Assembly (NCBI RefSeq): GCF_900142675.1
Contig: NZ_FRBS01000001.1
Coordinates: 124,001-188,000 of the forward strand
Origin: Shouchella rhizosphaerae
Lineage (GTDB): Bacteria > Bacillota > Bacilli > Bacillales > Bacillaceae_D
Direction: 5' to 3'
DNA length: 64,000 bases
How positions within the stretch are numbered: position 1 is the stretch's first letter; every line of letters starts with the position of its first letter. A program made the position numbers and the translations under genes. Below, piece after piece: positions 9,401 through 44,076 of this stretch. The notes under the pieces are model-generated. The model was not told where the DNA came from. It worked only from the letters and a program-made list of their open reading frames with translations, and ran no database searches.

Positions 9401-10772
9401 AAGTGACGCTTATAACTTGAAGTACCATATTACGCCGACACACGGCTTATTAAATGACCCGAACGGGCTTGCCTATTTCCAAGGTCAGTATCATGTTTTT
9501 TATCAGTGGAATCCCTATGGCACCGAACATAAAAACAAAAGCTGGGGTCATGTTGTTTCCGATGACCTAGTGAACTGGCATAGGAAAGAGACGGCATTGG
9601 TACCTTCGGAATGGTACGACAAGGACGGCATTTATTCCGGCGGAAGCATTGTTCATGAAGGAAAGCTTTATCTCTTCTATACAGGTAACGTCATCAACAA
9701 AGATGGGACACGGGCAAGTTATCAATGCGCGGCTGTTTCTGAAGACGGGCACCAGTTCCAGAAACTCGGTCCGTTATTCGAGCATCCTGCTGGTTATACG
9801 AGACATGTCCGCGATCCGAAAGTCTGGAAAGACGATTCAGGCAACTGGTGGTTGATCGTAGGGGCCCAGCGGGAAGATCTTACGGGAGATGCGCTTGTTT
9901 ATAAGTCCGAAGACTTGATCAGCTGGTCGTGCCAGGGATCGTTTCTCGAACAGGAGCATTCATTCGGATATATGTGGGAATGTCCTGATGTGCTCCAGTT
10001 TCCTGAACATGATGTCTTTGTCTTTTCCCCGCAAGGCTTGCCAGAGGAAGGCGATCAATATAAAAATCCGAATCAATCAGGTTATATTGTTGGGCGCATT
10101 TCAGAGTCCGGGAAATTTCTTGGTACGTTGTCTGACTTCAACGAGCTCGACCGGGGATTTGATTTTTATGCCCCGCAAACGTTCAAGGTCAACAATCGAA
10201 TCTTGATGTTCGGGTGGATGAGCGCAATGACGGAGGAAACAGAGCAAGCTGTCCCGACAATCGAGGAAGGATGGGTTCATGCATTGACTCTTCCGAGGGA
10301 AATCGTTTTCGCAGATGGCGTGCTATATCAGAGACCGTTACATGAGCTCCAGCTATTAAGGCAGCATGAAGTGCACGAAGGAATTAGCAACAGCGGTCAA
10401 TGGAGCTTGCCTTCCCTAGCAGCTGAGGTCGTTATTCGGTTTATGGAGCAACCTGACAGCTTCCGGCTCATCATCAGAAACACCGTACAGATCGACTATG
10501 ATCATGAGCAAAACAGTTTGACTGTCTGGAGAACGAACTGGTTGACGAACGAGAAGGAACACCGTAAAGCTGTGCTCGGTCATTCGCTTGCAGAATTGCA
10601 CATGTTTATTGAAAGCTCCAGCATAGAGCTATTTGTGAATGAAGGGGAGGAAGTATTCTCTTTGCGTTACTTTCTAGAGGATACGAACGAGCGCAGCGTG
10701 CGGTTTGAGTCAGACTGCAGCGAAGCTGTCTTAAGCATGTACCGCTTGCAAGAAAGTATAGACGAGGAGTGA
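9390..10772 (+). CDS. glycoside hydrolase family 32, sucrose-6-phosphate hydrolase/fructosidase
   Basis: A 460 aa GH32 enzyme without signal peptide. The three catalytic motifs are visible: the nucleophile Asp23 in LLNDPNG, the RDP motif in HVRDPKVW and the acid/base Glu in WECPDV. A five-bladed propeller (to about residue 320) is followed by a beta-sandwich domain. Cytoplasmic members behind a sucrose PTS cleave sucrose 6-phosphate into glucose 6-phosphate and fructose. Two ATG codons are adjacent at 9390 and 9393; the ribosome site GGGGGAA lies in the end of the GH3 gene. Confidence 0.88.
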   Translation: MMSKSDAYNLKYHITPTHGLLNDPNGLAYFQGQYHVFYQWNPYGTEHKNKSWGHVVSDDLVNWHRKETALVPSEWYDKDGIYSGGSIVHEGKLYLFYTGNVINKDGTRASYQCAAVSEDGHQFQKLGPLFEHPAGYTRHVRDPKVWKDDSGNWWLIVGAQREDLTGDALVYKSEDLISWSCQGSFLEQEHSFGYMWECPDVLQFPEHDVFVFSPQGLPEEGDQYKNPNQSGYIVGRISESGKFLGTLSDFNELDRGFDFYAPQTFKVNNRILMFGWMSAMTEETEQAVPTIEEGWVHALTLPREIVFADGVLYQRPLHELQLLRQHEVHEGISNSGQWSLPSLAAEVVIRFMEQPDSFRLIIRNTVQIDYDHEQNSLTVWRTNWLTNEKEHRKAVLGHSLAELHMFIESSSIELFVNEGEEVFSLRYFLEDTNERSVRFESDCSEAVLSMYRLQESIDEE

Positions 10773-10964
10773 CTTATCACTTTCCATCGCTCAAAAACGC
10801 CATGATAGGCTTGTCAGCGATTAGCCGGTAATTGTTCCCAATATATTTGAACCTGCTGGAAGTATAAAGATAAATGAGGCAGAAGCGAATGATTCTGACG
10901 TACCCATCATTACGGGCTTGCCTTGTACCCTGACTCTCCCTTTTGAATGTACAAGCAGGTAAGA

Positions 10965-11006
10965 GAAGGCAGTGATCCCACCGTGGACGGAGCTGCCTTC
11001 TTTTTT
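10965..11006 (+). terminator. intrinsic terminator of the sugar operon
   Basis: GAAGGCAG pairs with CTGCCTTC across a 20-nt loop and is followed by six Ts. The stretch between the GH32 stop and this hairpin (10773-10964) shows no gene. Confidence 0.75.
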
Positions 11007-11033
11007 GCGTTTATGCCTTTGACGGATTGACGC

Positions 11034-11062
11034 TTGTTTGCGTATTTTACTATCGGTATACT
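11034..11062 (+). promoter_or_regulatory. sigma-A promoter of the AraC gene
   Basis: TTGTTT, a 17-nt spacer and TATACT lie 77 nt before the regulator start codon, directly after the operon terminator, so the regulator is transcribed on its own. Confidence 0.55.
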
Positions 11063-11138
11063 ATAGGTAAAAGGGACTGGTTCTAGTTCCAAGGAACCAA
11101 GCAGGTTCATGTTCACGGTTTGGTGACGGGGTGGCAAA

Positions 11139-11966
11139 ATGAAAAAGATGTATGAACATATCGAAATCGATCGTAAAAAGCTGATTAACCTCTTTATTTT
11201 CCAGGCGAGGACGACAGAAAGAGTTATTCCGATGCATTTTCACAGCAACATGGAACTGATTTACTGCATTAACGGAAGCTTGCGGGTCTGGCACGAAGGA
11301 AAAGTTACCACTCTAATGGATAAGGATATGCTGTTCATAAACAGCAATGTCCCCCACTCCACTCAAAGTCTTACGGAGAACCGCGTGCTAGTGCTGTATT
11401 TTCCGGAATCTTTTTTTGCCAGCGAACAAGTTCTTATCCAATTGAACACCTCGGAAGAACAGCTGGATGAGCAGGTCCTGTCCAATCTAAGAACGCTGCT
11501 TATGGAAATATACAACCTTCATTATTCAACGGGCACGTATGACTATATTCTGGCACAAAGCCGGATCATTGAGTTGAAATACTGGCTGGCGCGCCATTTT
11601 AGCCAAACAGCCGAGCTTTCCCCTGCTACTAGCAGATCCGATCGACAAAAAATCCAAACGATTCTAGACTTTATTAAAGAGCATTATACCGAAAACATCA
11701 GTTTGGCCGAAACTGCCCGCATATGCGGTTATTCTGAGGCTTATTTGTCCAGAATGTTTCATGAATATACAGGGCAGACATTTACGGAGTACAAGCAGAT
11801 CCTTTGTCTAGAGAAAGCAATTGATTTGCTCGATACTACGAACAAGTCGCTTACAGAGATCTCCTATGAAACCGGCTTCCCTAACGTGAAATCGTTTAGA
11901 AAAGTATTTAAGGAAGTCATGGGGAAAACCCCTTATGAATATAAAAAATCAACTGACATGTACTAG
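11139..11966 (+). CDS. AraC family regulator with cupin sensor domain
   Basis: A 275 aa regulator. The N-terminal part (about 15-110) is a cupin with MHFHSNMELIY and PHSTQS segments; the C-terminal 100 residues carry two helix-turn-helix units, including SLAETARICGYSEAYLSRMF and SLTEISYETGFPNVKSF. This layout is typical of sugar-responsive activators. It lies just downstream of the PTS/GH3/GH32 operon on the same strand with its own promoter, so it most likely controls that operon (inference). Start ATG is preceded by a weak GGGGTGG ribosome site. Confidence 0.85.
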   Translation: MKKMYEHIEIDRKKLINLFIFQARTTERVIPMHFHSNMELIYCINGSLRVWHEGKVTTLMDKDMLFINSNVPHSTQSLTENRVLVLYFPESFFASEQVLIQLNTSEEQLDEQVLSNLRTLLMEIYNLHYSTGTYDYILAQSRIIELKYWLARHFSQTAELSPATSRSDRQKIQTILDFIKEHYTENISLAETARICGYSEAYLSRMFHEYTGQTFTEYKQILCLEKAIDLLDTTNKSLTEISYETGFPNVKSFRKVFKEVMGKTPYEYKKSTDMY

Positions 11967-12078: not shown

Positions 12079-12585
12079 TTAAGAATACAGCTTTAATAGT
12101 TCTTGTCCTGGAAAACGATTTGTATTGTTCACCTCTATAAAGTATACTAACTGCCATTTTTGTGTTTCAAGCGCTTGTTTGCTAGCGGGATGTTCCCATC
12201 TAGGGTAAACTCTAATAGCCATTTTTCCTTTTGTAGTGGGTGTTTTAAGGATATTTTGTTTTACAAGAACTTCTTTCGGAAATACGAATTGGCCAAAATG
12301 ATTGTCAGTAGTAAAAGTATTGATAACCAATAAATCAGTAGCCTTTTCATATGAAAAGGCTTGATTTTTATTGGCTTGATCTTTTTCCCAAAAAACAACA
12401 AACTGTCCTATCTTGTTAGGTGTGATTTTTGCGACTCTAAATCTAACCGATTTTGAATGTAGTTGAAATATACCAGCTCCATAATCTGAGTTTTGCGCTT
12501 CTTCTTGAATAGCATTTATAATTAAGTGATTTGGCTCATAAAAAATTTTATTTACATATGTTAACGCCTGATAAAATTCATTCAC
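12079..12585 (-). CDS. mepB: MepB family protein
   Basis: A 168 aa soluble protein matching the MepB family known from the staphylococcal mepRAB operon: FVFPKEVLVKQNIL, GKMAIRVYPRW and ETQKWQLVYF are the conserved stretches. Biochemical function is unknown. Unlike in Staphylococcus there is no MATE pump mepA or MarR regulator mepR next to it; it stands alone, convergent with the AraC gene. The start is GTG with AAGGAG 9 nt upstream. Confidence 0.82.
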   Translation of the reverse strand: MNEFYQALTYVNKIFYEPNHLIINAIQEEAQNSDYGAGIFQLHSKSVRFRVAKITPNKIGQFVVFWEKDQANKNQAFSYEKATDLLVINTFTTDNHFGQFVFPKEVLVKQNILKTPTTKGKMAIRVYPRWEHPASKQALETQKWQLVYFIEVNNTNRFPGQELLKLYS

Positions 12586-12689
12586 TGCTTTGTACTCCTT
12601 ATTTTTTATACTACGTCATCCAATGCCTTCTAGAATCCGCTAATCATAAATTTTCTTGTTTTATTACGTTTTATATCTAAACATCTTGC

Positions 12690-12763
12690 TTCGTTAATGA
12701 AATAAAACCTAAATAACGAAACACTTTGCTCAGTTCAACCCTTTGGGAGAGAACGTTCGTTCT
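12690..12763. promoter_or_regulatory. inverted repeats between mepB and the ABC genes
   Basis: The 12586-12890 gap has no gene. It holds a perfect 7-bp inverted repeat TTCGTTA-N17-TAACGAA (12690-12720), suggestive of an operator for mepB, and a GAAC-N4-GTTC palindrome at 12752-12763 that shares the core of the Bacillus LexA box but lacks its outer C and G. Neither is assigned to a regulator. Confidence 0.3.
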
Positions 12764-12871
12764 TATTGTAACAGCATTTTGGAAACGTATCAAATTCACA
12801 GAGCCTAAAATTTAAAGAAGACCTGCGGGAACGTATATGGTTACATGCCGAGAAGTAGCTTTTTATTTTTC

Positions 12872-12914
12872 TTGCAACCAGCTTAATATTAGTGTACTAT
12901 TTAAATAGAACACT
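12872..12914 (+). promoter_or_regulatory. promoter and YtrA-type operator of the ABC cluster
   Basis: TTGCAA at 12872-12877, a 17-nt spacer and TACTAT at 12895-12900 form the promoter. A 24-bp near-perfect palindrome at 12891-12914 (arms AGTGTACTATTT and AAATAGAACACT, one mismatched pair) covers the -10. Its AGTGT/ACACT ends resemble what is known of the B. subtilis YtrA operator, and a YtrA-type GntR protein is encoded downstream, so it is the likely autoregulatory site. Confidence 0.7.
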
Positions 12915-12931
12915 AGAACATAGGGTGAGGA

Positions 12932-13864
12932 GTGGAGAAAATGGAGTACCCTTTAAAGGTAAAAGAACTTAATAAATCGCTTGGGAAAAAGCCGATTATA
13001 AAAAACATGTCATTCCAATTGGAACGGGGAGCGATTTATGGCTTTTTAGGGCCAAATGGATCAGGGAAGACAACTACAATTCGTATGATTGTTTCCTTAA
13101 TTGCCCCTGATTCAGGAGATGTGGAAATAGAAGGGAAATCAGTGCGCACGAACCGTGAAGAGGCGTTGGCGCATATTGGTGCCATTGTCGAAGATCCAGA
13201 TTTGTACGGCTACTTAACAGGACGACAAAATCTTGAGCACTTTGCGCGGATGAGCGCTACTCCTGTTTCAAAAGAACGGATCGATGAGGTGGTCACGCTT
13301 GTAGAGCTAGAAGGGGCGATGCAAAAAAAAGTCAAATCTTATTCACTCGGTATGAAACAACGGCTGGGCATTGCCGTCTCTTTGCTTCATAAGCCTTCCG
13401 TCCTTATTCTTGATGAGCCGACAAACGGCCTTGATCCGAAAGGAATCCGTGATTTGCGTCACTATTTGCAACGGCTCGCACGAGAAGACGGCGTCACGTT
13501 GCTTGTCTCAAGCCATCAACTAAACGAAATCGAAATGTTGTGTGATAAAGCCATTATCATTAAACATGGGGAAGTCATCGAACAAATTTCAATGAATACT
13601 GCTGTTAAAGAAAAAGCGGCAACTTTTAATATTCAAATTGAAGCAGAGCCTGTAGAGCAAGCAAAAAGTGTGCTTGCTGGCTTCGGAAAAGTAGGGGAAG
13701 TCGCAGGGAAATTGGAACTAGAAAAACAACCGTATGAGCAAATACCAAAGCTTGTTAATGCCCTCGTTGCAGCAGGAGTCAATGTCTATGGCATGTCTTA
13801 CCGCAATCGTTTAGAAGACGCTTATTTTTCAATAACAGAAGGGCAAAAGGAGGATGTCTCATGA
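12932..13864 (+). CDS. ABC transporter ATP-binding protein, BcrA type
   Basis: A 310 aa ATPase with Walker A GPNGSGKTT (residues 40-48), signature SLGMKQR and Walker B LILDEPTNGLDP, then a C-terminal extension of about 90 residues typical of the bacitracin/lantibiotic-resistance BcrA group. It overlaps the permease start by 4 nt (ATGA). With the permease it should form a drug or peptide exporter that protects the cell envelope. Transcription is likely repressed by the GntR protein at 14777 via the palindrome at 12891-12914. An ATG three codons downstream (12941) is an alternative start. Confidence 0.88.
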   Translation: MEKMEYPLKVKELNKSLGKKPIIKNMSFQLERGAIYGFLGPNGSGKTTTIRMIVSLIAPDSGDVEIEGKSVRTNREEALAHIGAIVEDPDLYGYLTGRQNLEHFARMSATPVSKERIDEVVTLVELEGAMQKKVKSYSLGMKQRLGIAVSLLHKPSVLILDEPTNGLDPKGIRDLRHYLQRLAREDGVTLLVSSHQLNEIEMLCDKAIIIKHGEVIEQISMNTAVKEKAATFNIQIEAEPVEQAKSVLAGFGKVGEVAGKLELEKQPYEQIPKLVNALVAAGVNVYGMSYRNRLEDAYFSITEGQKEDVS

Positions 13865-14619
13865 TCGGTCTTATTCATAATGAGTGGCTAAAGTCGTGGT
13901 ACGGGCGAAAAATGTGGCTATTTTCGATTGTAATGGCTGTCTTCATGGTAGGGGCACTTGGCATCGCTCTTCTTGTCCAAGCAAACACTGACATAACGAT
14001 TGCTGCCGAAGATTTTTCTGAAATAAGCGTCATGTTATTTCCAACTTTTATTATGCTTTATGGGGTTGTTCTCATTGCAGGCGCTATTGCAGGCGAACAT
14101 GCGCATGGAACGGTCAAACAATTGTTAATTCGCCCCACATCGCGGACGAAGGTTTTGATAAGCAAATGGGCAGGCAATTTTCTTTTGGCAGGGCTTGCCT
14201 TTGGGATTCTTGTTCTTATCACAACCGTAACAGGAATTCTTGTTTTCCAATCAGACGCAACTGTGTTGGAGATCGCAAAAGATACAGCTGCGACAGCCCT
14301 TTATCAGTTGCCGACGCTTGTCTTTTATATGGCGCTTGCAACATTGATTGCTGTCCTCACAAAAAGCACCGCTTTAACAATCATTATTACGTTTTTACCG
14401 ATGTTTTTCGGCTCAATTGTGCAATTTTTTATTGTAAGATACGAATGGTCGAAGTGGATTGTTCTATCTCATATTGATTTTTACAGCAACTATCATGAAT
14501 TGGGGACGATGCCGGAGCCGTTTGCAAGCATGTGGGCATCACTCGGCTTTTTAGCTGCCCATATTGCCTTGATTCTTCTTGTGGCACATGTTGTTTTTCA
14601 AAAGCGAGATGTGCTTTAA
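13861..14619 (+). CDS. ABC-2 type permease
   Basis: A 252 aa membrane protein with about six hydrophobic segments, starting with NEWLKSWYGRKMWLF, as in YhcI/BcrB-like permeases. The GEHAHGTVKQLLIRPTSR loop after the second segment is characteristic of ABC-2 permeases. It is translationally coupled to the ATPase before it. Substrate not determinable. Confidence 0.83.
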   Translation: MIGLIHNEWLKSWYGRKMWLFSIVMAVFMVGALGIALLVQANTDITIAAEDFSEISVMLFPTFIMLYGVVLIAGAIAGEHAHGTVKQLLIRPTSRTKVLISKWAGNFLLAGLAFGILVLITTVTGILVFQSDATVLEIAKDTAATALYQLPTLVFYMALATLIAVLTKSTALTIIITFLPMFFGSIVQFFIVRYEWSKWIVLSHIDFYSNYHELGTMPEPFASMWASLGFLAAHIALILLVAHVVFQKRDVL

Positions 14620-14642
14620 TAAAAAAGTCGGGCGTTTAAATT

Positions 14643-14715
14643 CAGACTGATAGAAAACGCTTGTCAGCCGAGGTGAGCAACGAAGCCAAGGATGCAAGCG
14701 TTTGGCTACAGTCTG
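14643..14715. repeat. imperfect inverted-repeat element, copy 1 (73 bp)
   Basis: The element starts CAGACTGATAGAAAACGCTT and ends with the near-reverse complement (CAAGCGTTT, GGCTA, CAGTCTG). Its left 25 nt match those at 20736 with one change, and its right end matches that copy too; the interior here is about 50 nt shorter. It lies in the ABC operon between the permease and the regulator, followed 1 nt later by a terminator hairpin. It encodes nothing and lacks any transposase. Confidence 0.75.
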
Positions 14716-14716
14716 G

Positions 14717-14742
14717 GCCAGGCGTAACTCGCCTGGCTTTAT
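14717..14742 (+). terminator. hairpin with T tail inside the ABC/GntR operon
   Basis: GCCAGGCG pairs perfectly with CGCCTGGC around a 5-nt loop and is followed by TTTATTT. It would cut read-through from the first ABC pair into the regulator and second ABC pair. Confidence 0.7.
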
Positions 14743-14776
14743 TTCATTTAGATAAGAGGGGGGAGTGATCCGCAGC

Positions 14777-15145
14777 ATGCAATTTGATCCGAATAAGGCT
14801 ATTTACACACAGATTGCCGAATATTATTATCAGCAAATATGCAGCGGCGAGTTGGCTCCTGGAGACAAGCTGCCCTCGGTCCGGGAAACGGCACAACGAT
14901 TGCAAGTAAACCCAAACACTGTTTCACGGGCGTATTTAGAAATGGACCGTGAACAAATTACGTTCTCAAAAAGGGGTCAAGGTACTTTTGTAACAACCGA
15001 TTTAACCGTGATTAAACAGCTGAAGGAAACATTGGCTGATGCGCAGATGCAAGCGTTAATTACATTCATGAGAAAGCTCGGTTTTTCCAATCAAGAAATT
15101 AGCGCCTCTTTAGAACGGTCATTAAAGGAGATGGGAAACCCATGA
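14777..15145 (+). CDS. GntR family repressor, YtrA subfamily
   Basis: A 122 aa regulator: an N-terminal winged helix with PSVRETAQRLQVNPNTVSRA and the short two-helix tail that defines the YtrA group, with no ligand-binding UTRA or FadR domain. Such proteins repress adjacent ABC exporter operons and respond to cell-wall-active peptides. I start at ATG 14777, 12 nt after AGAGGGGGGA; the in-frame GTG at 14765 sits almost on that site. It overlaps the next ATPase gene by 4 nt. Likely target is the palindrome at 12891-12914. Confidence 0.85.
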   Translation: MQFDPNKAIYTQIAEYYYQQICSGELAPGDKLPSVRETAQRLQVNPNTVSRAYLEMDREQITFSKRGQGTFVTTDLTVIKQLKETLADAQMQALITFMRKLGFSNQEISASLERSLKEMGNP

Positions 15146-15840
15146 GTGCACTAGTGGTCGAATCACTGGAAAAAAAATATGGCCGAAAGCGTGTTTTTGC
15201 AAATTTATCAGTAGAGATGACAAAAAATCGCTTTATCGTACTTCTAGGCGCAAATGGTGCAGGCAAAACGACATTTTTAAAAGTATGTGCAGGACTTGCG
15301 CCGGCTGGAAAGGGCCGTATCTCCCTCGATGGCGAGCATAAGCGAGCGGCGCGTGTTCAATTAGCCAGTTATGTCTCAGAAGAGGGTGGTTTCGAGCCCC
15401 ATAAACGGGTAAAAACGATTTTGCATGACCAAAAAGCGGTTTACGAGACGTTCCAGCATCGCCGTGCGTTAGAAATGTGCAAAACAGCCGGATTGGAAGA
15501 AGGGACTAAATGGGGGGCGCTTTCAAAAGGGCAGCAACACTTGCTCTCGTTAATCGTTGCCCTTGCTAAGCCGAAGCCTTTTATTTTTATTGACGAATTG
15601 CTCGCTAATCTTGATACAGCAAAAAAAGAGGCGATGATTGCTGTGTTAACAGATTTTCTAGTGGAAGAAGAACGGATGATTATCATGGCGACCCATGCGT
15701 ATGAAGATGTAGAAATGCTTGCTGATGGTGTCATTTTTTTACGCGAGGATGAAGCAGATGTTATTACTGATTTAGAGGAATGGCGCTTAGAGAAAGGACA
15801 GTCCCTCAAGGATTTGTTTGCAGAGGTGGGCAAAAAATGA
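15142..15840 (+). CDS. ABC transporter ATP-binding protein (second system)
   Basis: A 232 aa ATPase with Walker A GANGAGKTT (residues 36-44) and Walker B FIFIDELLANLD. The signature is LSKGQQHLL, a departure from LSGGQ, as in YtrB-like ATPases. It overlaps both neighbours by 4 nt and is therefore coupled to the repressor and to the membrane protein after it. Together they resemble the YtrABC arrangement. Confidence 0.82.
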   Translation: MSALVVESLEKKYGRKRVFANLSVEMTKNRFIVLLGANGAGKTTFLKVCAGLAPAGKGRISLDGEHKRAARVQLASYVSEEGGFEPHKRVKTILHDQKAVYETFQHRRALEMCKTAGLEEGTKWGALSKGQQHLLSLIVALAKPKPFIFIDELLANLDTAKKEAMIAVLTDFLVEEERMIIMATHAYEDVEMLADGVIFLREDEADVITDLEEWRLEKGQSLKDLFAEVGKK

Positions 15841-37217: not shown

Positions 37218-39002
37218 TTATTTTTTCCCGAGTTGTTCTTCCAATTCCTCTACCAGACCGACAATTTCCACTGTCCGCTCTTCACGTTCTGCGTCTTTTT
37301 GTGCTTTTTCTAGTGCTGCTCGCATTTCAGCTTGTGAGAGCTGTGCTTCCATTTCTTCTGTCACGCTTAATGCTTCAGCGTATTGGCGCAATGCGTCAGC
37401 TTCTTGGCCGATAATGTCGGTGTCGCATTCGCCCCCAATGGCAATATTGTGTTCATGACCGGTAAATGTACAATTTTCGATGAAGCCGCCAGCATGGAGC
37501 AAGCGGATGGCACAGGTCCCGCCGTTTTCGATCACGCATTCTCGAATCGTTGGCGCGCTATGTTGGATATCAATTTGTGCTTCATAATGGCCGCTAAACT
37601 GGCAATGTTCCAGGAGCCCGCTCGCTTCCATGTCAAAGCGGATGCCGCTCTCATAACTGTCATAAAGCTTGCTTTCTTTCATGGTAATGGTGGAATGGCT
37701 GCTTACATAAATTTGCGGGTAAAGGTCATTATGATGGTAAAAAGTTGAATTTACAACATTCGCATGGCTATGGTCATGAATATATAAGCCGCTTTGCGCT
37801 CCATCAAAGACTTGTATGTCTTCTAGGTCGGCTTCGCTTTTGTCAGCAATGACGAGTTGATTCAGTTCATTTTCATAAAAGCGGCAGTGACCCACGTCTG
37901 CACTTGCTTGTTCCGTTAGCCAAAACCCATAATGTTTGCCATAGAAGATAGCGCTATGTTTTAGGCTTATCCGTGCTTGTTCGCTTACTGCTAATTGAGG
38001 CATCATGTGGCCGAACAAGTCACTTGATTCCACATGGGCATAAGCGTTTTTCGTCAGGACTACCCCTGATTTTTGCCCAAATTTAATCGTGCTTCTATAC
38101 ACGTAAAGGGCGCCATCGCCAACGCGAATATGGTCGTCTTCGTGCGACGTGAGAATCGTTGCTTCAAGTTGGGCGGTACCGTTATCGTTAATGTCGACTC
38201 CGATTTGTCCAGCTTCAAACAAACTGTTTTGGATAATCGTTTCCCCGCCTAAAACGACTACTTGCTTTGGTACATTATTCGTCAACGTACATGAATTCAA
38301 TGTCAGTTTTGATTCGCCAAGGACAAGTGTCCCTCCAGAAGAGCCTTCATAGATCAGGCAATCTTTTAAAGCCACTTCACTATTGCCCATCGATTTAAGT
38401 TGCATATTTTCAGAATGATGGCCGTAGATTTGGCAATTTTCCACAAAGCTGCGGCTGTTCTGGTCAAAATAAATCGCCGCGCTCTTTCCTTGGTAAATAT
38501 GCGAGTGTTTCATCACAAACCGGCCGTTCCCGCTTACACATACTTGACTGCCCCGTTGGCTGTATAAGGCGCAGTACTCGGCACGGGCTCGCCCAACTAC
38601 AAATAGGCCGATGCCACTGTGGCGAATCGTGGCGTCGGTTAAATCAAGATGGCCATCTTCAAGAACATGGATCCCCCATTTTTTTAGGCGGGTAAACTGA
38701 CAATGAGTCAATTGCGCAAATCCGTTTTTAACGGTTAGCCCTTTTTCGCATTCCGCAAAAGAGATGTTTTTTATCGACACCGACGCTTTATTGATGATCT
38801 CCATTGGCGCTTGAATAATGACTGTTTCTGGTTCACCAAGGCCGACTAAATGAACAGACTTGGCAATTGTCACAGACTCCTGGTATGTTCCTGGATCTAT
38901 TTTGATCGTATCCCCATCGTTCGCATCAAGCAACGCTTCTTCAATCGTTTTGTATTTGGAAAGGAGTTTTCTTGTTACGTGGATTGTTTTCACCGTTTTC
39001 AC
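37218..39002 (-). CDS. right-handed parallel beta-helix repeat protein
   Basis: A 594 aa protein. The start TIEEALLDANDGDTIKIDPGTYQE is the classic pectin-lyase-fold cap. About 20 coils follow, each with a hydrophobic turn and a C-x-I/F pattern (for example SVENCQIY, LTLNSCTLT, VNSTFYHHND). The last 70 residues (from about 520) are a charged coiled coil rich in Glu and Ala. No signal peptide or catalytic motif is evident, so it appears to be cytoplasmic. It is unrecognised beyond the fold and lacks an operon partner. Confidence 0.82.
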   Translation of the reverse strand: MKTVKTIHVTRKLLSKYKTIEEALLDANDGDTIKIDPGTYQESVTIAKSVHLVGLGEPETVIIQAPMEIINKASVSIKNISFAECEKGLTVKNGFAQLTHCQFTRLKKWGIHVLEDGHLDLTDATIRHSGIGLFVVGRARAEYCALYSQRGSQVCVSGNGRFVMKHSHIYQGKSAAIYFDQNSRSFVENCQIYGHHSENMQLKSMGNSEVALKDCLIYEGSSGGTLVLGESKLTLNSCTLTNNVPKQVVVLGGETIIQNSLFEAGQIGVDINDNGTAQLEATILTSHEDDHIRVGDGALYVYRSTIKFGQKSGVVLTKNAYAHVESSDLFGHMMPQLAVSEQARISLKHSAIFYGKHYGFWLTEQASADVGHCRFYENELNQLVIADKSEADLEDIQVFDGAQSGLYIHDHSHANVVNSTFYHHNDLYPQIYVSSHSTITMKESKLYDSYESGIRFDMEASGLLEHCQFSGHYEAQIDIQHSAPTIRECVIENGGTCAIRLLHAGGFIENCTFTGHEHNIAIGGECDTDIIGQEADALRQYAEALSVTEEMEAQLSQAEMRAALEKAQKDAEREERTVEIVGLVEELEEQLGKK

Positions 39003-39242: not shown

Positions 39243-40112
39243 ATGGACTTACACAATTATTTAGCAAACGGCATTCCGCCGCAAAAACAAGACAAGCAAC
39301 CAGGGGATGAAGCGGTGATGGAACCGCGCCCGATCTATGAAGACGACGATTACAAAGGTACAGGAAAACTTCGCGGCAAAGTAGCGCTTATTACTGGTGG
39401 CGATTCGGGTATCGGCCGCGCCGTGGCAGTTGGGTATGCCAAAGAAGGCGCCCATATTGCGATCGTCTATTTAGATGAGCATGAAGACGCAGAACAAACA
39501 AAGCAGCGCGTCGAGCAAGAAGGTGTTCAGTGCATTACAATTTCTGGCGACATAAGTGATGAAACGTTTTGTAAGGAGAGCGTTGAACGTACAGTCACAG
39601 AACTTGGCGGCCTAGATATTTTAGTCAACAACGCTGCAGAGCAACATCCAGTCAACGATTTACGGGAACTAACAGCCGAACAGCTTCACCGTACATTCGC
39701 GACCAATTTCTATTCGTATGTGTATTATACGAAAGCAGCGCTTGATTATTTGAAGCCTGGCAGCGCTATTATCAATACGTCTTCCATTAATGCCTATCGG
39801 GGCAACGTGACGTTGATTGATTATACGAGTACCAAAGGCGCCATTACAGCCTTTACCCGTTCAATGGCGCAGGCGCTTGCTTCAAAGCATATCCGCGTAA
39901 ACAGCGTAGCCCCTGGCCCGATCTGGACGCCGTTGATTCCTGCTTCTTTTGACGAGCAGAAAGTGTCTGAGTTTGGCACAACGACGCCAATGGGACGAGC
40001 AGGGCAGCCGAGTGAACTTGTCGGTGCCTATGTACTCCTCGCTTCTAACGACTCTTCCTACATGACCGGACAGGCGATCCATATTAATGGCGGGGATTAT
40101 ATTAGTTCATGA
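39243..40112 (+). CDS. short-chain dehydrogenase, general stress protein 39 type
   Basis: A 289 aa SDR. A Pro/acid-rich N-terminal extension (PPQKQDKQPGDEAVMEPRP) precedes the Rossmann motif GGDSGIGRA; NNAAEQ and active-site SSINAY...DYTSTKGA provide Ser, Tyr and Lys. YdaD/YhdF type. Start ATG 39243 with GAGGAGGAAAG upstream; the longer frame from 39195 is acidic and overlaps the promoter. Substrate unknown. Confidence 0.88.
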   Translation: MDLHNYLANGIPPQKQDKQPGDEAVMEPRPIYEDDDYKGTGKLRGKVALITGGDSGIGRAVAVGYAKEGAHIAIVYLDEHEDAEQTKQRVEQEGVQCITISGDISDETFCKESVERTVTELGGLDILVNNAAEQHPVNDLRELTAEQLHRTFATNFYSYVYYTKAALDYLKPGSAIINTSSINAYRGNVTLIDYTSTKGAITAFTRSMAQALASKHIRVNSVAPGPIWTPLIPASFDEQKVSEFGTTTPMGRAGQPSELVGAYVLLASNDSSYMTGQAIHINGGDYISS

Positions 40113-40150
40113 CTGAGAAAAGCAGGCTAGTGCAGCCTGCTTTTCTCAGT
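40112..40150. terminator. bidirectional terminator between SDR and symporter
   Basis: A perfect 17-bp stem (arms starting ACTGAGAAAAGCAGG) around a 5-nt loop, containing A-run and T-run on opposite sides, between convergent genes. Confidence 0.88.
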
Positions 40151-40154
40151 GATG

Positions 40155-41576
40155 TTAAATGGACGTTTCTTTACGGACGACAGTTGTCGTATTCTTGTTT
40201 CGGGTCGCTGCACTTACTAGGAGCAGGCCAATTGTCGAGGCAACTAAGCCAAACGCAACGTATGGGATGGTTGTACCGAGCAAATGGGCTAAGCCTGCGC
40301 CTGCGATTCCAAAAAGCATACCGGCAATCGCGCCTTTGAAAGTAAGGAATTGTCTGTCTTTTAAAGCGAAGCCGATAAACAGTGGAGCAAACAGACCTGC
40401 GGCTGAATAAGCATAAGAAGCGACAATCCAGTCAAGTGCCCGTGGATATAACGTCGCAAGAGCAAATGCAAAGAAGATGACAAATACTGAAAAAATACGC
40501 GATGTCCGGAGTAGCTGTCCGTCGCTGACTTTCGGATTAAGATACGACTGGTATATATCACGGGTGATATTAACGACGACCGATTGGACTGCGCTGGTGA
40601 CCGTTGACAACAAGGTTGCACAAATGAAAGTAGAATAGGCGACCATTAAAATCGATGGCATATTCGATAAAAACATGCCAGCAGCACTTTCAGGGTTATC
40701 CAAGTTCGGGTTCATCGTGTAGGCGGACATGCCGACTAACGCTGCGTAAAGCTTCGTCAAAATGAGGAGAGCGGCAGTAGAAAGCAATGAAATGACGACT
40801 GTCTTCATACTGTCAGCAGCATAAATGCGTTGGAAGTACATTTGATTGGTCATTGTGCCTGGTGTGAGCGATAATGACCAAAAGAGCACTGTTAGAAGCC
40901 CAACGGACCAAAAGCCTTCAATGCCAATATTCTCTTGAGGGACTGCCTGTACGATCGCTGACCAACCGCCGGCTGATGTGATCGCATAAACAGAAGCAAC
41001 GACCGCCATCACGAGCATGAGAATCCCAAAAATCAAGTCTGTCCAGGCAACAGATACCATTCCTCCTGGGATAATGAATAAAAGGCAAATGACTGTGAAG
41101 ATAAGCATTAACAGCCAAGGTTCAACGCCAGTCAATTCTGAAAACAATCGGCCGAAAGCAACTAATTGTGTACACAGCCAACCAAAGGGGACAACCATTG
41201 TCATAAATGTGATTGTCGTGATCAAGAACGGGTGAGTGCCATATATTTTTTTGAAAATATCAGGGAGACTAATAAAATCGTTTTTGCGCAACCATTTCGC
41301 AAGAAACAGTAAGGCAAGAACTCCCGCTCCTGTGAACAAGCCATAAGTAATCACGCTCCAACCGAAAGCATAGCCGATCCCGACTTGAGCAACAAGCATG
41401 CCGCCGCCAGAAGCCGTCGCGAACTGTGTTAAAATGACGACATAGACCGGCAAAGCCCGCCCGCCAACAGCCCAGCCTTCGTTGTTCCGAGTACGTTTGC
41501 TAATATAAAAGGAAAAGATGATGGCCCCTATGAGCACAATCATGTTTGCCACAATTACCCAAATCGATACATCCAC
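40155..41576 (-). CDS. sodium:solute symporter family (SSS) transporter
   Basis: A 473 aa membrane protein with about 13 hydrophobic segments. RALPVYVVILTQFATASGGGMLVAQ and GWLCTQLVAFGRLF are characteristic of SSS permeases; the sodium site region is SLLSTAALLIL. The start is GTG with AGGAGG 7 nt upstream. It lies in line with the GntR and lyase genes, which suggests import of the lyase substrate. Substrate unknown. Confidence 0.85.
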   Translation of the reverse strand: MDVSIWVIVANMIVLIGAIIFSFYISKRTRNNEGWAVGGRALPVYVVILTQFATASGGGMLVAQVGIGYAFGWSVITYGLFTGAGVLALLFLAKWLRKNDFISLPDIFKKIYGTHPFLITTITFMTMVVPFGWLCTQLVAFGRLFSELTGVEPWLLMLIFTVICLLFIIPGGMVSVAWTDLIFGILMLVMAVVASVYAITSAGGWSAIVQAVPQENIGIEGFWSVGLLTVLFWSLSLTPGTMTNQMYFQRIYAADSMKTVVISLLSTAALLILTKLYAALVGMSAYTMNPNLDNPESAAGMFLSNMPSILMVAYSTFICATLLSTVTSAVQSVVVNITRDIYQSYLNPKVSDGQLLRTSRIFSVFVIFFAFALATLYPRALDWIVASYAYSAAGLFAPLFIGFALKDRQFLTFKGAIAGMLFGIAGAGLAHLLGTTIPYVAFGLVASTIGLLLVSAATRNKNTTTVVRKETSI

Positions 41577-41610
41577 ACAAACCCCTCCTCAGATAATTGA
41601 ATATTCTGTA

Positions 41611-41656
41611 AAAAATAACGCCATCTAAAGCTCTATTGCAACAAAGCTTTAGATGG
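41611..41656 (-). terminator. terminator between the GntR and symporter genes
   Basis: On the minus strand CCATCTAAAGCT/AGCTTTAGATGG form a 12-bp stem followed by CGTTATTTTTTA. It may reduce read-through into the symporter gene. Confidence 0.7.
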
Positions 41657-41662
41657 GCGACT

Positions 41663-42367
41663 CTATTCATGGTGAAACATGAGTTTACAGCGGTCGCCTC
41701 TGAAAATGCTTTTCGTGAGAATTAAGCGCTTTTTATTCCATGTTGAGCCGATTTTTGTAATTTTTAATGCAGGCTGTCCGTTGCCTTCAACTTGTAGGCG
41801 TTCGGTTTCCAACTGGGTTAGGATGACCGGTTCTACCGTGGTGTCATATGCTTGGATTTGCAAGTTGTACTGAGTAATCAATAGTTCATAAAGCGTGCCT
41901 TCAAGGTTTTTCTGCAACAAACCAGGAACCGCTGCACTCGGTAAATAAGATGTTTCCACAGCGACAACTTCATCCTCAAAATAGCGTAGACGGATAAGTT
42001 CATAGACAAGTTCGCCAGGAAATAGTTCCAATGCCGACTGGACTGTCGCCGAACAAGCTAGTTCCTGAGCTGACAAAACGGTATGTTTTTTACCGAATTT
42101 TTCAGGATAATAAAAACTAAACACAGGCGTTTGGATTTTTTTCTCATTCACAAATGTCCCTTTTCCTTGTTTTCGGGTCAAACGCCCTTCATCAACGAGT
42201 TTTAACAATGCTTGGCGAACGGTTGAGCGGCTTAACCGGTACTGACTCGCCAATGTAAGTTCGTCTGGAATTTTCGCATTTTCTTGCCATTCGCCGCTGT
42301 CTATTTTTTCAACAAAAAGATCTTTTAATTGCAAATAAAGGGGAATGCTGCTTTCTTCATCAATCAC
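41663..42367 (-). CDS. GntR regulator, HutC subfamily with UTRA domain
   Basis: A 234 aa regulator: winged helix with LASQYRLSRSTVRQALLKLVDEG and a UTRA ligand domain. I start at GTG 42367 (GAGGCGAG upstream), which aligns its first residues MIDEESSIPLYLQL with those of NagR; GTG 42382 is the alternative. It is placed 24 nt after the lyase-like gene. It probably senses a substrate or intermediate and binds the palindrome at 43912-43937. Confidence 0.83.
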   Translation of the reverse strand: MIDEESSIPLYLQLKDLFVEKIDSGEWQENAKIPDELTLASQYRLSRSTVRQALLKLVDEGRLTRKQGKGTFVNEKKIQTPVFSFYYPEKFGKKHTVLSAQELACSATVQSALELFPGELVYELIRLRYFEDEVVAVETSYLPSAAVPGLLQKNLEGTLYELLITQYNLQIQAYDTTVEPVILTQLETERLQVEGNGQPALKITKIGSTWNKKRLILTKSIFRGDRCKLMFHHE

Positions 42368-42391
42368 GTCGGCTCGCCTCACTCATTCATA

Positions 42392-43897
42392 CTACTGCGC
42401 CCCCCTTTCGAGTTCCGCAGCGTAGCGTTTGTATAGTTGATCAGCAGATTGCAGAGCCTGTTTCAAATCACTGATTTTTTGGTGATCTGATGCTAGTGTC
42501 TGTTCGAGCTGCTGTAATTGCCGTGCAACCTCAACAGGGGCTGAGCCGCCGCGTACGGTCCGAAGGGAAATATTTCGCTCCGGATCAAGGGCCTGCTCAA
42601 CAAATTCTTTGGTGACAGAAACCGTTTTTGCTGTTACCTGTTTAATAGCACGTTCAACTGTACTTGCTTCTATTTTATCAGATCCCAGCCCTTGATTCAG
42701 TGTCTCGTTGACAATCTCAGCAACGATATGATGGGCGGTGCGGAACGAAAAGTGGTAGTGTCTTACTAGCGCATTTGCTAGCTCAGTCACAGTACTAAAG
42801 TTTTGTCGAGTAGTAGCGGCCATATTGTCTTTATGAACGGTAAGCGTTTGTAAGGTTTTGATCATAAGCCGAATGGCTGCTTTCGTTTCATTGATTGCTT
42901 CCCATGTGTATTTCATGCTTTCCATGCTTGTATCCCGCGAATGCGAATAAAGGGTATTCTTTAATACTGAGAGGGAGGATACAAGTGCGCCTTGAATATG
43001 TCCAGCCTTCGCTTTAATATGCTCGAGCGTAACGGGATTCTTTTTTTGCGGCATAATGCTGCTAATAACTGCTACTGAATGACCGACTTCAAGATAACCA
43101 AATTCATACGAACACCAAGTGTAAAGGTCTTGTGCGAAGCGGCTTAATGAGTTACTAAATATGCTTAATGCTGAAAGTGCTTCTAATGCATAATCTCTAG
43201 AGGCGATGCCGTCAAGCGAATTTTCAAGCAAATCGGCGAACCCTAATAACTCCATCGTGAACTTTCGGTTAATCGAAAACGTAGTTGAGGCAAGGGCACA
43301 AGAACCAAGCGGGCTTTTGTTGATGTGGGCATAACAGTTATACAGGCGTGTGAAATCCCGCTCGAATCCGTGCAACAGTGCGGAAAGGTAATGGGCAAAC
43401 GTAATTGGTTCAGCTGGCTGTAAATGTGTGTAACCAGTCATTAATGTCGCCGTATGGTCAGTAGCTAAATCAATTAATGTCTGCCTTAGTGTACAGACTA
43501 GTTCGTAAATTTCGATCATTTCTTCGCGTATTCGCATGCGGCTCACAGTCGCCAAAATATCATTGCGGCTTCTTCCTGTGTGCATTTGTCCACCTATCTC
43601 TGGTCCTGTTTGCTCGATAATATAAGCTTCCACATTAAAATATAAATCTTCAAGAGCAGGATTGATCGACAATGCCTCTTTTCCTGTCACCTGCAAGTGG
43701 GTCAGGACGGAATGGATTTTACGGGCTGCTTCGTCTGAGATAATACCCTCCGATTTTAGCATAAATAAGTGGACACTGTTAATTTTTAGCAAGTATGAAT
43801 AGTGATATTTTAAATCGGAGCTAATGCTTGGCTTAAACAATAAGTCAATCATTTCCTGTGAGGGAGTTTCCTTTAAACGACCAACCAAGGAGATCAC
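42392..43897 (-). CDS. argininosuccinate lyase-like enzyme (fumarase/ASL superfamily)
   Basis: A 501 aa enzyme with the superfamily landmarks: MHTGRSRND, GYTHLQPAEPITFAHYL and SSIMPQKKNP (catalytic serine loop). Family members cleave a C-N bond with release of fumarate. It is longer than ordinary ArgH, has no argG beside it, and reads NDI where ArgH usually has NDQ, so it is likely a paralogue acting on another N-substituted aspartate. Start GTG 43897, with a weak AAAGG site. The cluster with a GntR sensor and a sodium symporter points to catabolism. Confidence 0.78.
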   Translation of the reverse strand: MISLVGRLKETPSQEMIDLLFKPSISSDLKYHYSYLLKINSVHLFMLKSEGIISDEAARKIHSVLTHLQVTGKEALSINPALEDLYFNVEAYIIEQTGPEIGGQMHTGRSRNDILATVSRMRIREEMIEIYELVCTLRQTLIDLATDHTATLMTGYTHLQPAEPITFAHYLSALLHGFERDFTRLYNCYAHINKSPLGSCALASTTFSINRKFTMELLGFADLLENSLDGIASRDYALEALSALSIFSNSLSRFAQDLYTWCSYEFGYLEVGHSVAVISSIMPQKKNPVTLEHIKAKAGHIQGALVSSLSVLKNTLYSHSRDTSMESMKYTWEAINETKAAIRLMIKTLQTLTVHKDNMAATTRQNFSTVTELANALVRHYHFSFRTAHHIVAEIVNETLNQGLGSDKIEASTVERAIKQVTAKTVSVTKEFVEQALDPERNISLRTVRGGSAPVEVARQLQQLEQTLASDHQKISDLKQALQSADQLYKRYAAELERGAQ

Positions 43898-43911
43898 CAG
43901 CCTTTCAGATA

Positions 43912-43937
43912 TGTACGTATGTTGTAATGTTCGTACA
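43912..43937 (-). promoter_or_regulatory. palindromic operator upstream of the lyase operon
   Basis: TGTACG and CGTACA are the ends of a 26-bp interrupted palindrome with partial symmetry inside. It starts 14 nt before the lyase start codon, so a bound protein would block transcription or initiation. Likely target of the HutC-type regulator in the same operon. Confidence 0.6.
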
Positions 43938-44047
43938 AATTGTAGTTGATTCTAAATTAGCAGCAACAAATCGTACTGTCAATACTTTTCTGAAAAAACA
44001 ACGAGATTTTTTATCATGACAGATATGCGTGGTTTGGGCATAAAGAG

Positions 44048-44076
44048 GAGGCGCCTGCTAATGAGTCAGGCGCCTC
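44048..44076 (-). terminator. hairpin after nagR
   Basis: GAGGCGCCTG and CAGGCGCCTC form a perfect 10-bp stem 20 nt beyond the nagR stop; the T tail is short. Confidence 0.65.

Follow-up and report, generated by a model that had tools for sequence, protein, structure and literature searches.

Enzymes of the aspartase/fumarase superfamily are chemically diverse. One of its members is argininosuccinate lyase (ArgH), whose Tyr and Gln bind its substrate on the arginine side, and an iminodisuccinate (IDS) epimerase and lyase route is known in Agrobacterium. EDDS lyase of Chelativorans sp. BNC1 (structures 6g3d and 6rx8) adds amines to fumarate and is used synthetically, according to an excerpt of PMC12363623. 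We analysed a three-gene locus in a 64,000-nucleotide stretch of the Shouchella rhizosphaerae genome (contig NZ_FRBS01000001.1, positions 124,001 to 188,000; hereafter the window). It encodes, all on the minus strand, an ArgH-like lyase proposed to act on an N-substituted aspartate (42392-43897, 501 amino acids as listed), a GntR regulator with a UTRA ligand domain (HutC-type), the proposed substrate-sensing repressor (41663-42382, 239 amino acids), and a symporter of the sodium:solute symporter (SSS) family (40155-41576, 473 amino acids). A first reading of the stretch (the original prediction) had seen here a dedicated pathway for an imported N-substituted aspartate that releases fumarate. 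We consider it fairly probable that the locus is a small inducible scavenging operon under GntR/UTRA control, in which a Na+-coupled importer and a non-redox lyase would free fumarate from such a compound.

The lyase compared with ArgH and EDDS lyase

In Pfam, the lyase matched Lyase_1 with 165.6 bits (cut-off 27) and ASL_C2 with 49.4 bits; the Lyase_1 domain, together with the SSIMPQKKN catalytic loop at residues 279-287, makes it a member of the aspartase/fumarase superfamily. As had been noticed at the outset, it keeps the core motifs but has NDI in place of NDQ: its TGRSRNDI corresponds to an ArgH motif with NDQ (or NDE), and its SSIMPQKKNPV to one with KKNPD. We compared 24 sequences of its non-ArgH family, from 23 loci, with 66 ArgH sequences, keeping EDDS lyase and one further relative (L110) apart. 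Eleven catalytic-motif residues (R109, S110, R111, N112, T157, H158, S279, S280, K285, N287 and E292) are unchanged in all sequences of both sets. At position 114 (lyase numbering) ArgH has Gln (58/66) or Glu (8/66), versus Ile, Leu, Met or Phe in the family. Asp, Tyr and Gln at positions 289, 319 and 325, respectively, are each present in all 66 ArgH sequences and in none of the 24 family sequences; the lyase carries Val289, His319 and Met325. His at position 319 recurs in 18 of the 24 family sequences, including all 11 that are linked to a GntR gene. The changed residues probably lie on the amine side of the substrate.

Excluded from the alignment were the duplicate loci L001, L008, L009 and L012-L015, as well as L017, a Rhizobium plasmid with an ABC importer, on which the lyase is annotated as two open reading frames (ORFs). 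Eight ArgH loci (L054, L060, L065, L069, L073, L075, L094 and L096) were missed by ORF calling and stand outside the 66 sequences; all eight have RSRNDQ and KKNPD. They are included in the gene-context counts below, as is L110, and L017 is excluded there too.

A phylogeny of the lyase against ArgH had been suggested as a check. In an unrooted tree of 52 sequences, 26 ArgH sequences make up one side of a branch with support 100/99, and the lyase lies on the other side, outside the ArgH group, so that the branching within true ArgH named as a refutation of the original prediction did not appear; a quick tree gave the same split, with 38 ArgH sequences and a support of 99. The nearest sequence outside the genus was the second lyase copy of an Ammoniphilus locus (L027). 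An argG-argH pair is present elsewhere in the same genome (L124). On these sequence comparisons, the lyase is not an ArgH. It does pass the NCBIfam argH equivalog model (TIGR00838; 420.2 bits versus a cut-off of 279.5), but so did all six lyases of its clade that were scanned (339-435 bits). Since five of these are relatives from opine, sugar or carrier contexts, the model is non-discriminating, and annotation by it will therefore label such lyases argH.

In a sequence search of the Protein Data Bank, EDDS lyase came out on top (235 bits), with Thermus ArgH at 234 bits. The AlphaFold model of the lyase has a pLDDT of 90.8, and the 50 structural matches listed for it are EDDS lyase, ArgH and delta crystallin; by E-value, EDDS lyase takes ranks 1-4 (best 2.1e-32, TM-scores 0.87-0.88) and ArgH comes next. 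An architecture like that of EDDS lyase, with which the original prediction had compared the logic of the pathway, is thus borne out. The two enzymes have in common the superfamily, the fold, the R-N pair and the SSIMPQKKN loop, at 30% identity. Of the active-site residues of EDDS lyase named in the same excerpt (R112, N113, Q159, N288, D290 and Y320; PMC12363623), three of six are identical in the lyase (R111, N112 and N287), whereas Gln159, Asp290 and Tyr320 are replaced by His158, Val289 and His319. The lyase probably works like EDDS lyase.

Gene neighbourhoods of the lyase and the symporter

With 21 query proteins and a 7-kb limit, we ran tblastn on the surroundings of 24 of the 25 distinct non-ArgH family loci and of 71 ArgH loci. 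The contrast between the two sets is partly built in, because one query was argG and the other 20 came from neighbourhoods of the family itself. A membrane or binding component of a transporter was found at 22 of the 24 family loci and at none of the 71 ArgH loci, which supports the transporter-linked setting proposed earlier. Conversely, argG was found at no family locus and at 36 of the 71 ArgH loci (some of the latter are short; where both flanks exceed 7 kb, the count was 22 of 44). GntR genes (10/24) and opine dehydrogenase genes (5/24) also occurred only on the family side (0/71 each); ABC ATPases did not discriminate (6/24 versus 13/71), and asparaginase did so weakly (5/24 versus 5/71). 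The two family loci without a listed transporter are L039, where a DcuA/DcuB carrier is cut by the contig end, and L041, where tblastn gave no match to any of the 21 queries. For L016, L049 and L041, which have high GC and unreliable ORF lists, tblastn was used instead of these lists; 9 of the 20 listed plasmid records were taken in.

The family is present in other phyla, with other transporters. Most of the linked transporters belong to uptake families (SSS, TRAP-TAXI, amino-acid and oligopeptide ABC, tripartite tricarboxylate), while L024, L025 and L108 have DcuC-type carriers, which are also able to export; at L024 and L025 the carrier is accompanied by an isochorismatase-family hydrolase. 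In L039, a Dcu carrier, asparaginase, lyase and aspartase stand in a row. In L022, a fumarase (in two parts) and a malic enzyme (12487-15423) are encoded at a distance of a few kb; they share the strand of the lyase operon, but an ORF of the opposite strand separates them from it. Several branches have an aspartate or asparagine moiety and C4-dicarboxylates in common, and it is the amine half that probably varies.

Both the lyase and the symporter have relatives that stand with opine dehydrogenases. Five of the 24 lyase loci (L021, L022, L023, L027 and L029) combine a GntR gene, the lyase, a TAXI binding protein, a DctM-type TRAP permease and a dehydrogenase of the Pfam Octopine_DH family (85-159 bits, cut-off 30); the best solved relative of the L021 dehydrogenase is 1bg6, N-(1-D-carboxyethyl)-L-norvaline dehydrogenase (221 bits). 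Among genomes sampled from the order, 3 of 299 had a relative of the symporter (E up to 1e-90), and among those from the phylum 1 of 398 did (E up to 1e-80); the organism's own genome belongs to both samples but is not counted among the hits. The four relatives outside the genus have 49-53% identity to the symporter, and in all four an Octopine_DH gene (148-161 bits) adjoins it, about 5-56 bp away; three of the four also have an FCD-type GntR gene beside them. No Octopine_DH gene was found near the 97% identical symporter copy of the sister genome (G029), in which all three proteins are 97-99% identical to those of the window. At the window, unlike at these loci, the symporter stands with the lyase instead of a dehydrogenase. 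Because relatives of both the enzyme and the importer carry opine dehydrogenases, the simplest reading is that both serve one class of compounds, namely secondary amines that link two acids, with the lyase taking the dehydrogenase's place here.

The regulator and its proposed operator

The original prediction had named a HutC-type sensor and a sodium symporter. Pfam matches agree on both: the regulator has a GntR domain (59.6 bits) and a UTRA domain (91.7 bits), which places it in the GntR/UTRA (HutC) subfamily, and the symporter has an SSF domain (101.5 bits, cut-off 22.8), which places it in the SSS family. The regulator shares the GntR helix-turn-helix and the UTRA domain with HutC/NagR-type repressors, but falls under the NCBIfam cut-off of every model it matched. 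Among the loci read, the regulators closest to it are encoded next to relatives of the lyase, with identities of 48.5% (L027), 47.7% (L021) and 44.2% (L022); those of L023, L024, L025 and L029 are 32-36% identical, and the neighbouring NagR-like protein 27%.

The element we propose as its operator, TTTGTACGAACATTACAACATACGTACATAT (43909-43939, minus strand), contains a 26-bp palindrome, TGTACG-N14-CGTACA (43912-43937), and the word ACATACGTACATAT (43909-43922). The palindrome had first been put forward as a testable operator; the element is present and we retain an operator there with reservations, but the palindrome itself does not exceed chance. When the 198-bp upstream region was shuffled 1000 times, 608 of the shuffles had at least one 6-bp inverted repeat (spacer 0-20). 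The unshuffled sequence has seven such repeats, a number reached in 6 of 1000 shuffles, but five of them belong to one hairpin at 44048-44076 and one to an A-run/T-run, leaving the palindrome as the seventh. Genome-wide, the palindrome pattern with up to two mismatches occurred 86 times versus 149 times for a reversed control, and the second exact match falls within an IspE-like ORF (named by eye). As the shuffles and the reversed control show no excess over chance, we rejected the palindrome alone as evidence for an operator. The hairpin at 44048-44076 (GAGGCGCC..GGCGCCTC) is GC-rich, lies between the NagR-like gene and the lyase, is identical in the sister genome, and may end the upstream transcription unit.

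The case for the element comes from the three relatives L021, L022 and L027, in which a TACGTACATA-type core and a TGTAC-N8/N16-GTACA layout recur; the respective sequences are TTTGTACGAACATTACAACATACGTACATAT (window), TTGTACGTACATACGTACAA (L027, in three copies), ATATGTACAGACATACGTACATAT (L021) and ATATGTACGTACATATAAACATTAGTACACA (L022). These four regions, whose regulators are at least 44% identical, were picked after viewing from eight loci (the sister genome uncounted). Three overlapping 8-mers (and reverse complements) occur in all four and in none of 1000 shuffles, a count that involves no rule beyond the choice of regions. The TGTAC-N8/N16-GTACA layout, a rule written after viewing, occurs in all four regions and in at most one of four in any shuffle. 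The longest word shared with the window has 14 bases in L021 (ACATACGTACATAT; 2 of 1000 shuffles), 11 in L022 (14 of 1000) and 11 in L027 (52 of 1000). Such a site is unlike the GTnTAnAC usual for HutC/NagR-type GntR regulators. It lies directly downstream of a candidate promoter, and for that reason repression would fit; the promoter (TTGACA, a 17-bp spacer and TGC-TAATTT, of the extended -10 type; 43952-43982, minus strand) was matched by eye and is absent from the scan's list. A genome-wide search with the 15-base operator core did not indicate a regulon: it gave the known exact site and 11 sites with two mismatches, and the reversed control also gave 12.

A further relative may bear on the signal. 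In L038, a Lachnospiraceae metagenome-assembled genome, a single ORF of 580 amino acids (9740-11482, plus strand) combines a GntR helix-turn-helix and the lyase in one protein that has no UTRA domain; it adjoins a DctP gene and DctM/DctQ-like ORFs (by eye). The fusion suggests that the substrate of the lyase is the signal.

Within the locus, the lyase end and the gntR start are 9 bp apart. The lyase may start at a TTG at 43888, because GGTGATC at 43892-43898 (minus strand) resembles a ribosome-binding site. In the 86-bp gap between gntR and the symporter lies a terminator-like hairpin (41621-41656, minus strand) with a 16-pair stem and a T-rich tail, its arms identical in the sister genome. 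Upstream of the lyase stand nagR-, nagA- and nagB-like genes (named by eye, except for the regulator, assigned by Pfam), and an SDR-like gene (named by eye) lies downstream of the three genes, facing them; with the argG-argH pair elsewhere, these neighbours agree with the earlier remark that the locus has no arginine context. The SDR-like gene is separated from the symporter by a 21-bp inverted repeat (40108-40154, 95% complementary), perhaps a two-way terminator. Farther away, a protein of 594 amino acids (37218-39002, minus strand) has repeated units that, by eye, resemble a right-handed beta-helix.

A proposed pathway and its alternatives

We propose that the symporter would import, by cotransport with Na+, an N-substituted aspartate that is anionic: a secondary amine of the opine type, with a further carbon group on the aspartate nitrogen. 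Beta-elimination by the lyase would then remove the amine, giving fumarate, which would enter the tricarboxylic acid cycle, and a free amine or amino acid. Opine dehydrogenases do the equivalent to related compounds by redox chemistry, which the lyase would not need. The regulator would bind TGTAC..GTACA-type sites just downstream of the promoter and be released by the substrate or a derivative. The original prediction holds in its main lines, though in part on other grounds, and is sharpened here to an opine-linked, non-redox aspartate-amine lyase operon. Its dedicated pathway stood in so far as the enzyme is non-ArgH and transporter-linked; the release of fumarate we infer from homology and genomic context, and likewise the substrate class, the direction of the reaction, the Na+ coupling, the repression and the ligand.

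Several observations weigh against this proposal. The opine link comes from relatives and not from the window locus: no opine-cleaving dehydrogenase or oxidase is among the three window genes, so that the locus is not an opine catabolism operon by that measure, and searches of the window's genome, which had no positive control, yielded no relative of the Octopine_DH family. The order of structural matches by root-mean-square deviation is the reverse of that by E-value, with 7.2-7.3 Å over the whole chain for EDDS lyase and mostly 2-4 Å for ArgH and delta crystallin. In the unrooted tree, ten sequences have unusual composition, the placement of EDDS lyase, on a long branch next to L110, is unsure, and the lyase group without EDDS lyase has a support of only 79/45. 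The terminator-like hairpin makes co-transcription of the symporter uncertain, perhaps only partial. As for the operator, two of the four substitutions that separate the sister genome from the window over about 225 bp fall in the palindrome and the 31-bp element, one in each arm, and that genome's upstream region lacks all three 8-mers as well as any TGTAC-N8/N16-GTACA site; either the site has decayed or shifted there, or the window element is weaker evidence than the three relatives suggest. L023, L024, L025 and L029 likewise have no shared 8-mer and no such site, and the same holds for the region before the L027 SIS gene. Finally, fructosamine-type genes in L027, L109 and L018 mean that the substrate may differ between branches.

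These last loci point to the best of the alternatives, which we nevertheless regard as unlikely: an Amadori route, in which the substrate would be an N-sugar aspartate (for example fructosyl-aspartate, formed from fructosyl-asparagine by asparaginase) and the lyase would give fumarate and an amino sugar. The Ammoniphilus locus (L027:4879-16382), which holds the lyase's nearest relative outside the genus, has two lyases, a GntR gene, a TAXI-TRAP transporter and an opine dehydrogenase. With them stand a SIS deglycase, which among solved structures matches 3eua best (410 bits), a fructoselysine-epimerase-like protein (112 bits, cut-off 305) and a type II asparaginase (493 bits versus a cut-off of 314). 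An Agrobacterium plasmid (L109:1313-11393) has an annotated asparaginase, a GntR gene, an amino-acid ABC importer, an IDS-epimerase-like protein, the lyase, a SIS protein and a fructoselysine-6-kinase-like PfkB (153 bits versus a cut-off of 247); the SIS protein and the kinase are far under the NCBIfam fructoselysine cut-offs. The MmgE/PrpD gene of this plasmid (205.8 bits to 2hp0) directly adjoins the lyase, as a homologue of the epimerase of the Agrobacterium IDS route, the same enzyme not being implied, whereas the window has no such epimerase gene. However, no match to SIS, PfkB, MmgE or asparaginase was found within 7 kb at the window, L026, L021-L025 or L029, and the relatives of the symporter adjoin opine dehydrogenases. 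Moreover, since a deglycase alone, as in the fructose-asparagine pathway, could already free aspartate, a lyase step would need a reason.

Quite improbable, in our view, is a different superfamily chemistry, with a leaving group other than an amine or a product other than fumarate. The diversity of the superfamily would allow it, and the NCBIfam model of XcbC, an ArgH-like enzyme of coenzyme M synthesis, matches the lyase with 268.9 bits, though well under its cut-off of 575. The nearest solved structures, EDDS lyase and ArgH, are nevertheless fumarate-releasing C-N lyases, and asparaginase, aspartase, fumarase or C4-dicarboxylate carrier genes stand beside some relatives.

Harder still to credit is a divergent ArgH paralogue that cleaves argininosuccinate, perhaps imported. 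The lyase has in common with ArgH both Pfam domains, the intact catalytic residues, the pass in the argH model and, for most matches, the close structural fits; it differs in its separate branch, in the loss of the three residues invariant in ArgH, and in a family that keeps company with transporters and not with argG, whose own pair with argH lies elsewhere in the genome. That the lyase joins fumarate and an amine into an N-substituted aspartate, for example a metal chelator, is very improbable: EDDS lyase does add amines to fumarate (PMC12363623, excerpt), but most linked transporters are of uptake families, the DcuC-type carriers aside, and the regulator has a ligand-binding domain.

Beyond the window, the scavenging of N-substituted aspartates may be one instance of something wider. 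We suggest, tentatively, that a widespread lyase family annotated as argH could offer bacteria a non-redox counterpart to opine dehydrogenases, in which N-(carboxyalkyl) aspartates of the opine type are split to yield an amino acid and fumarate. It would pair with many unrelated importers and often with its own GntR regulator; in the L038 fusion, the enzyme may even act as the sensor of the DNA-binding domain, like the aminotransferase part of MocR regulators. No earlier account of such a system was found among the matches listed from the open-licence literature on EDDS and iminodisuccinate lyases, opines and fructose-asparagine. If the proposal is true, genes named argininosuccinate lyase across several phyla would be catabolic C-N lyases, and reconstructions of the arginine pathway based on the argH model may err where such paralogues are concerned. 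The family would also offer new enzymes for making N-substituted L-aspartates, and would point to unrecognised natural N-substituted aspartates as nutrients.

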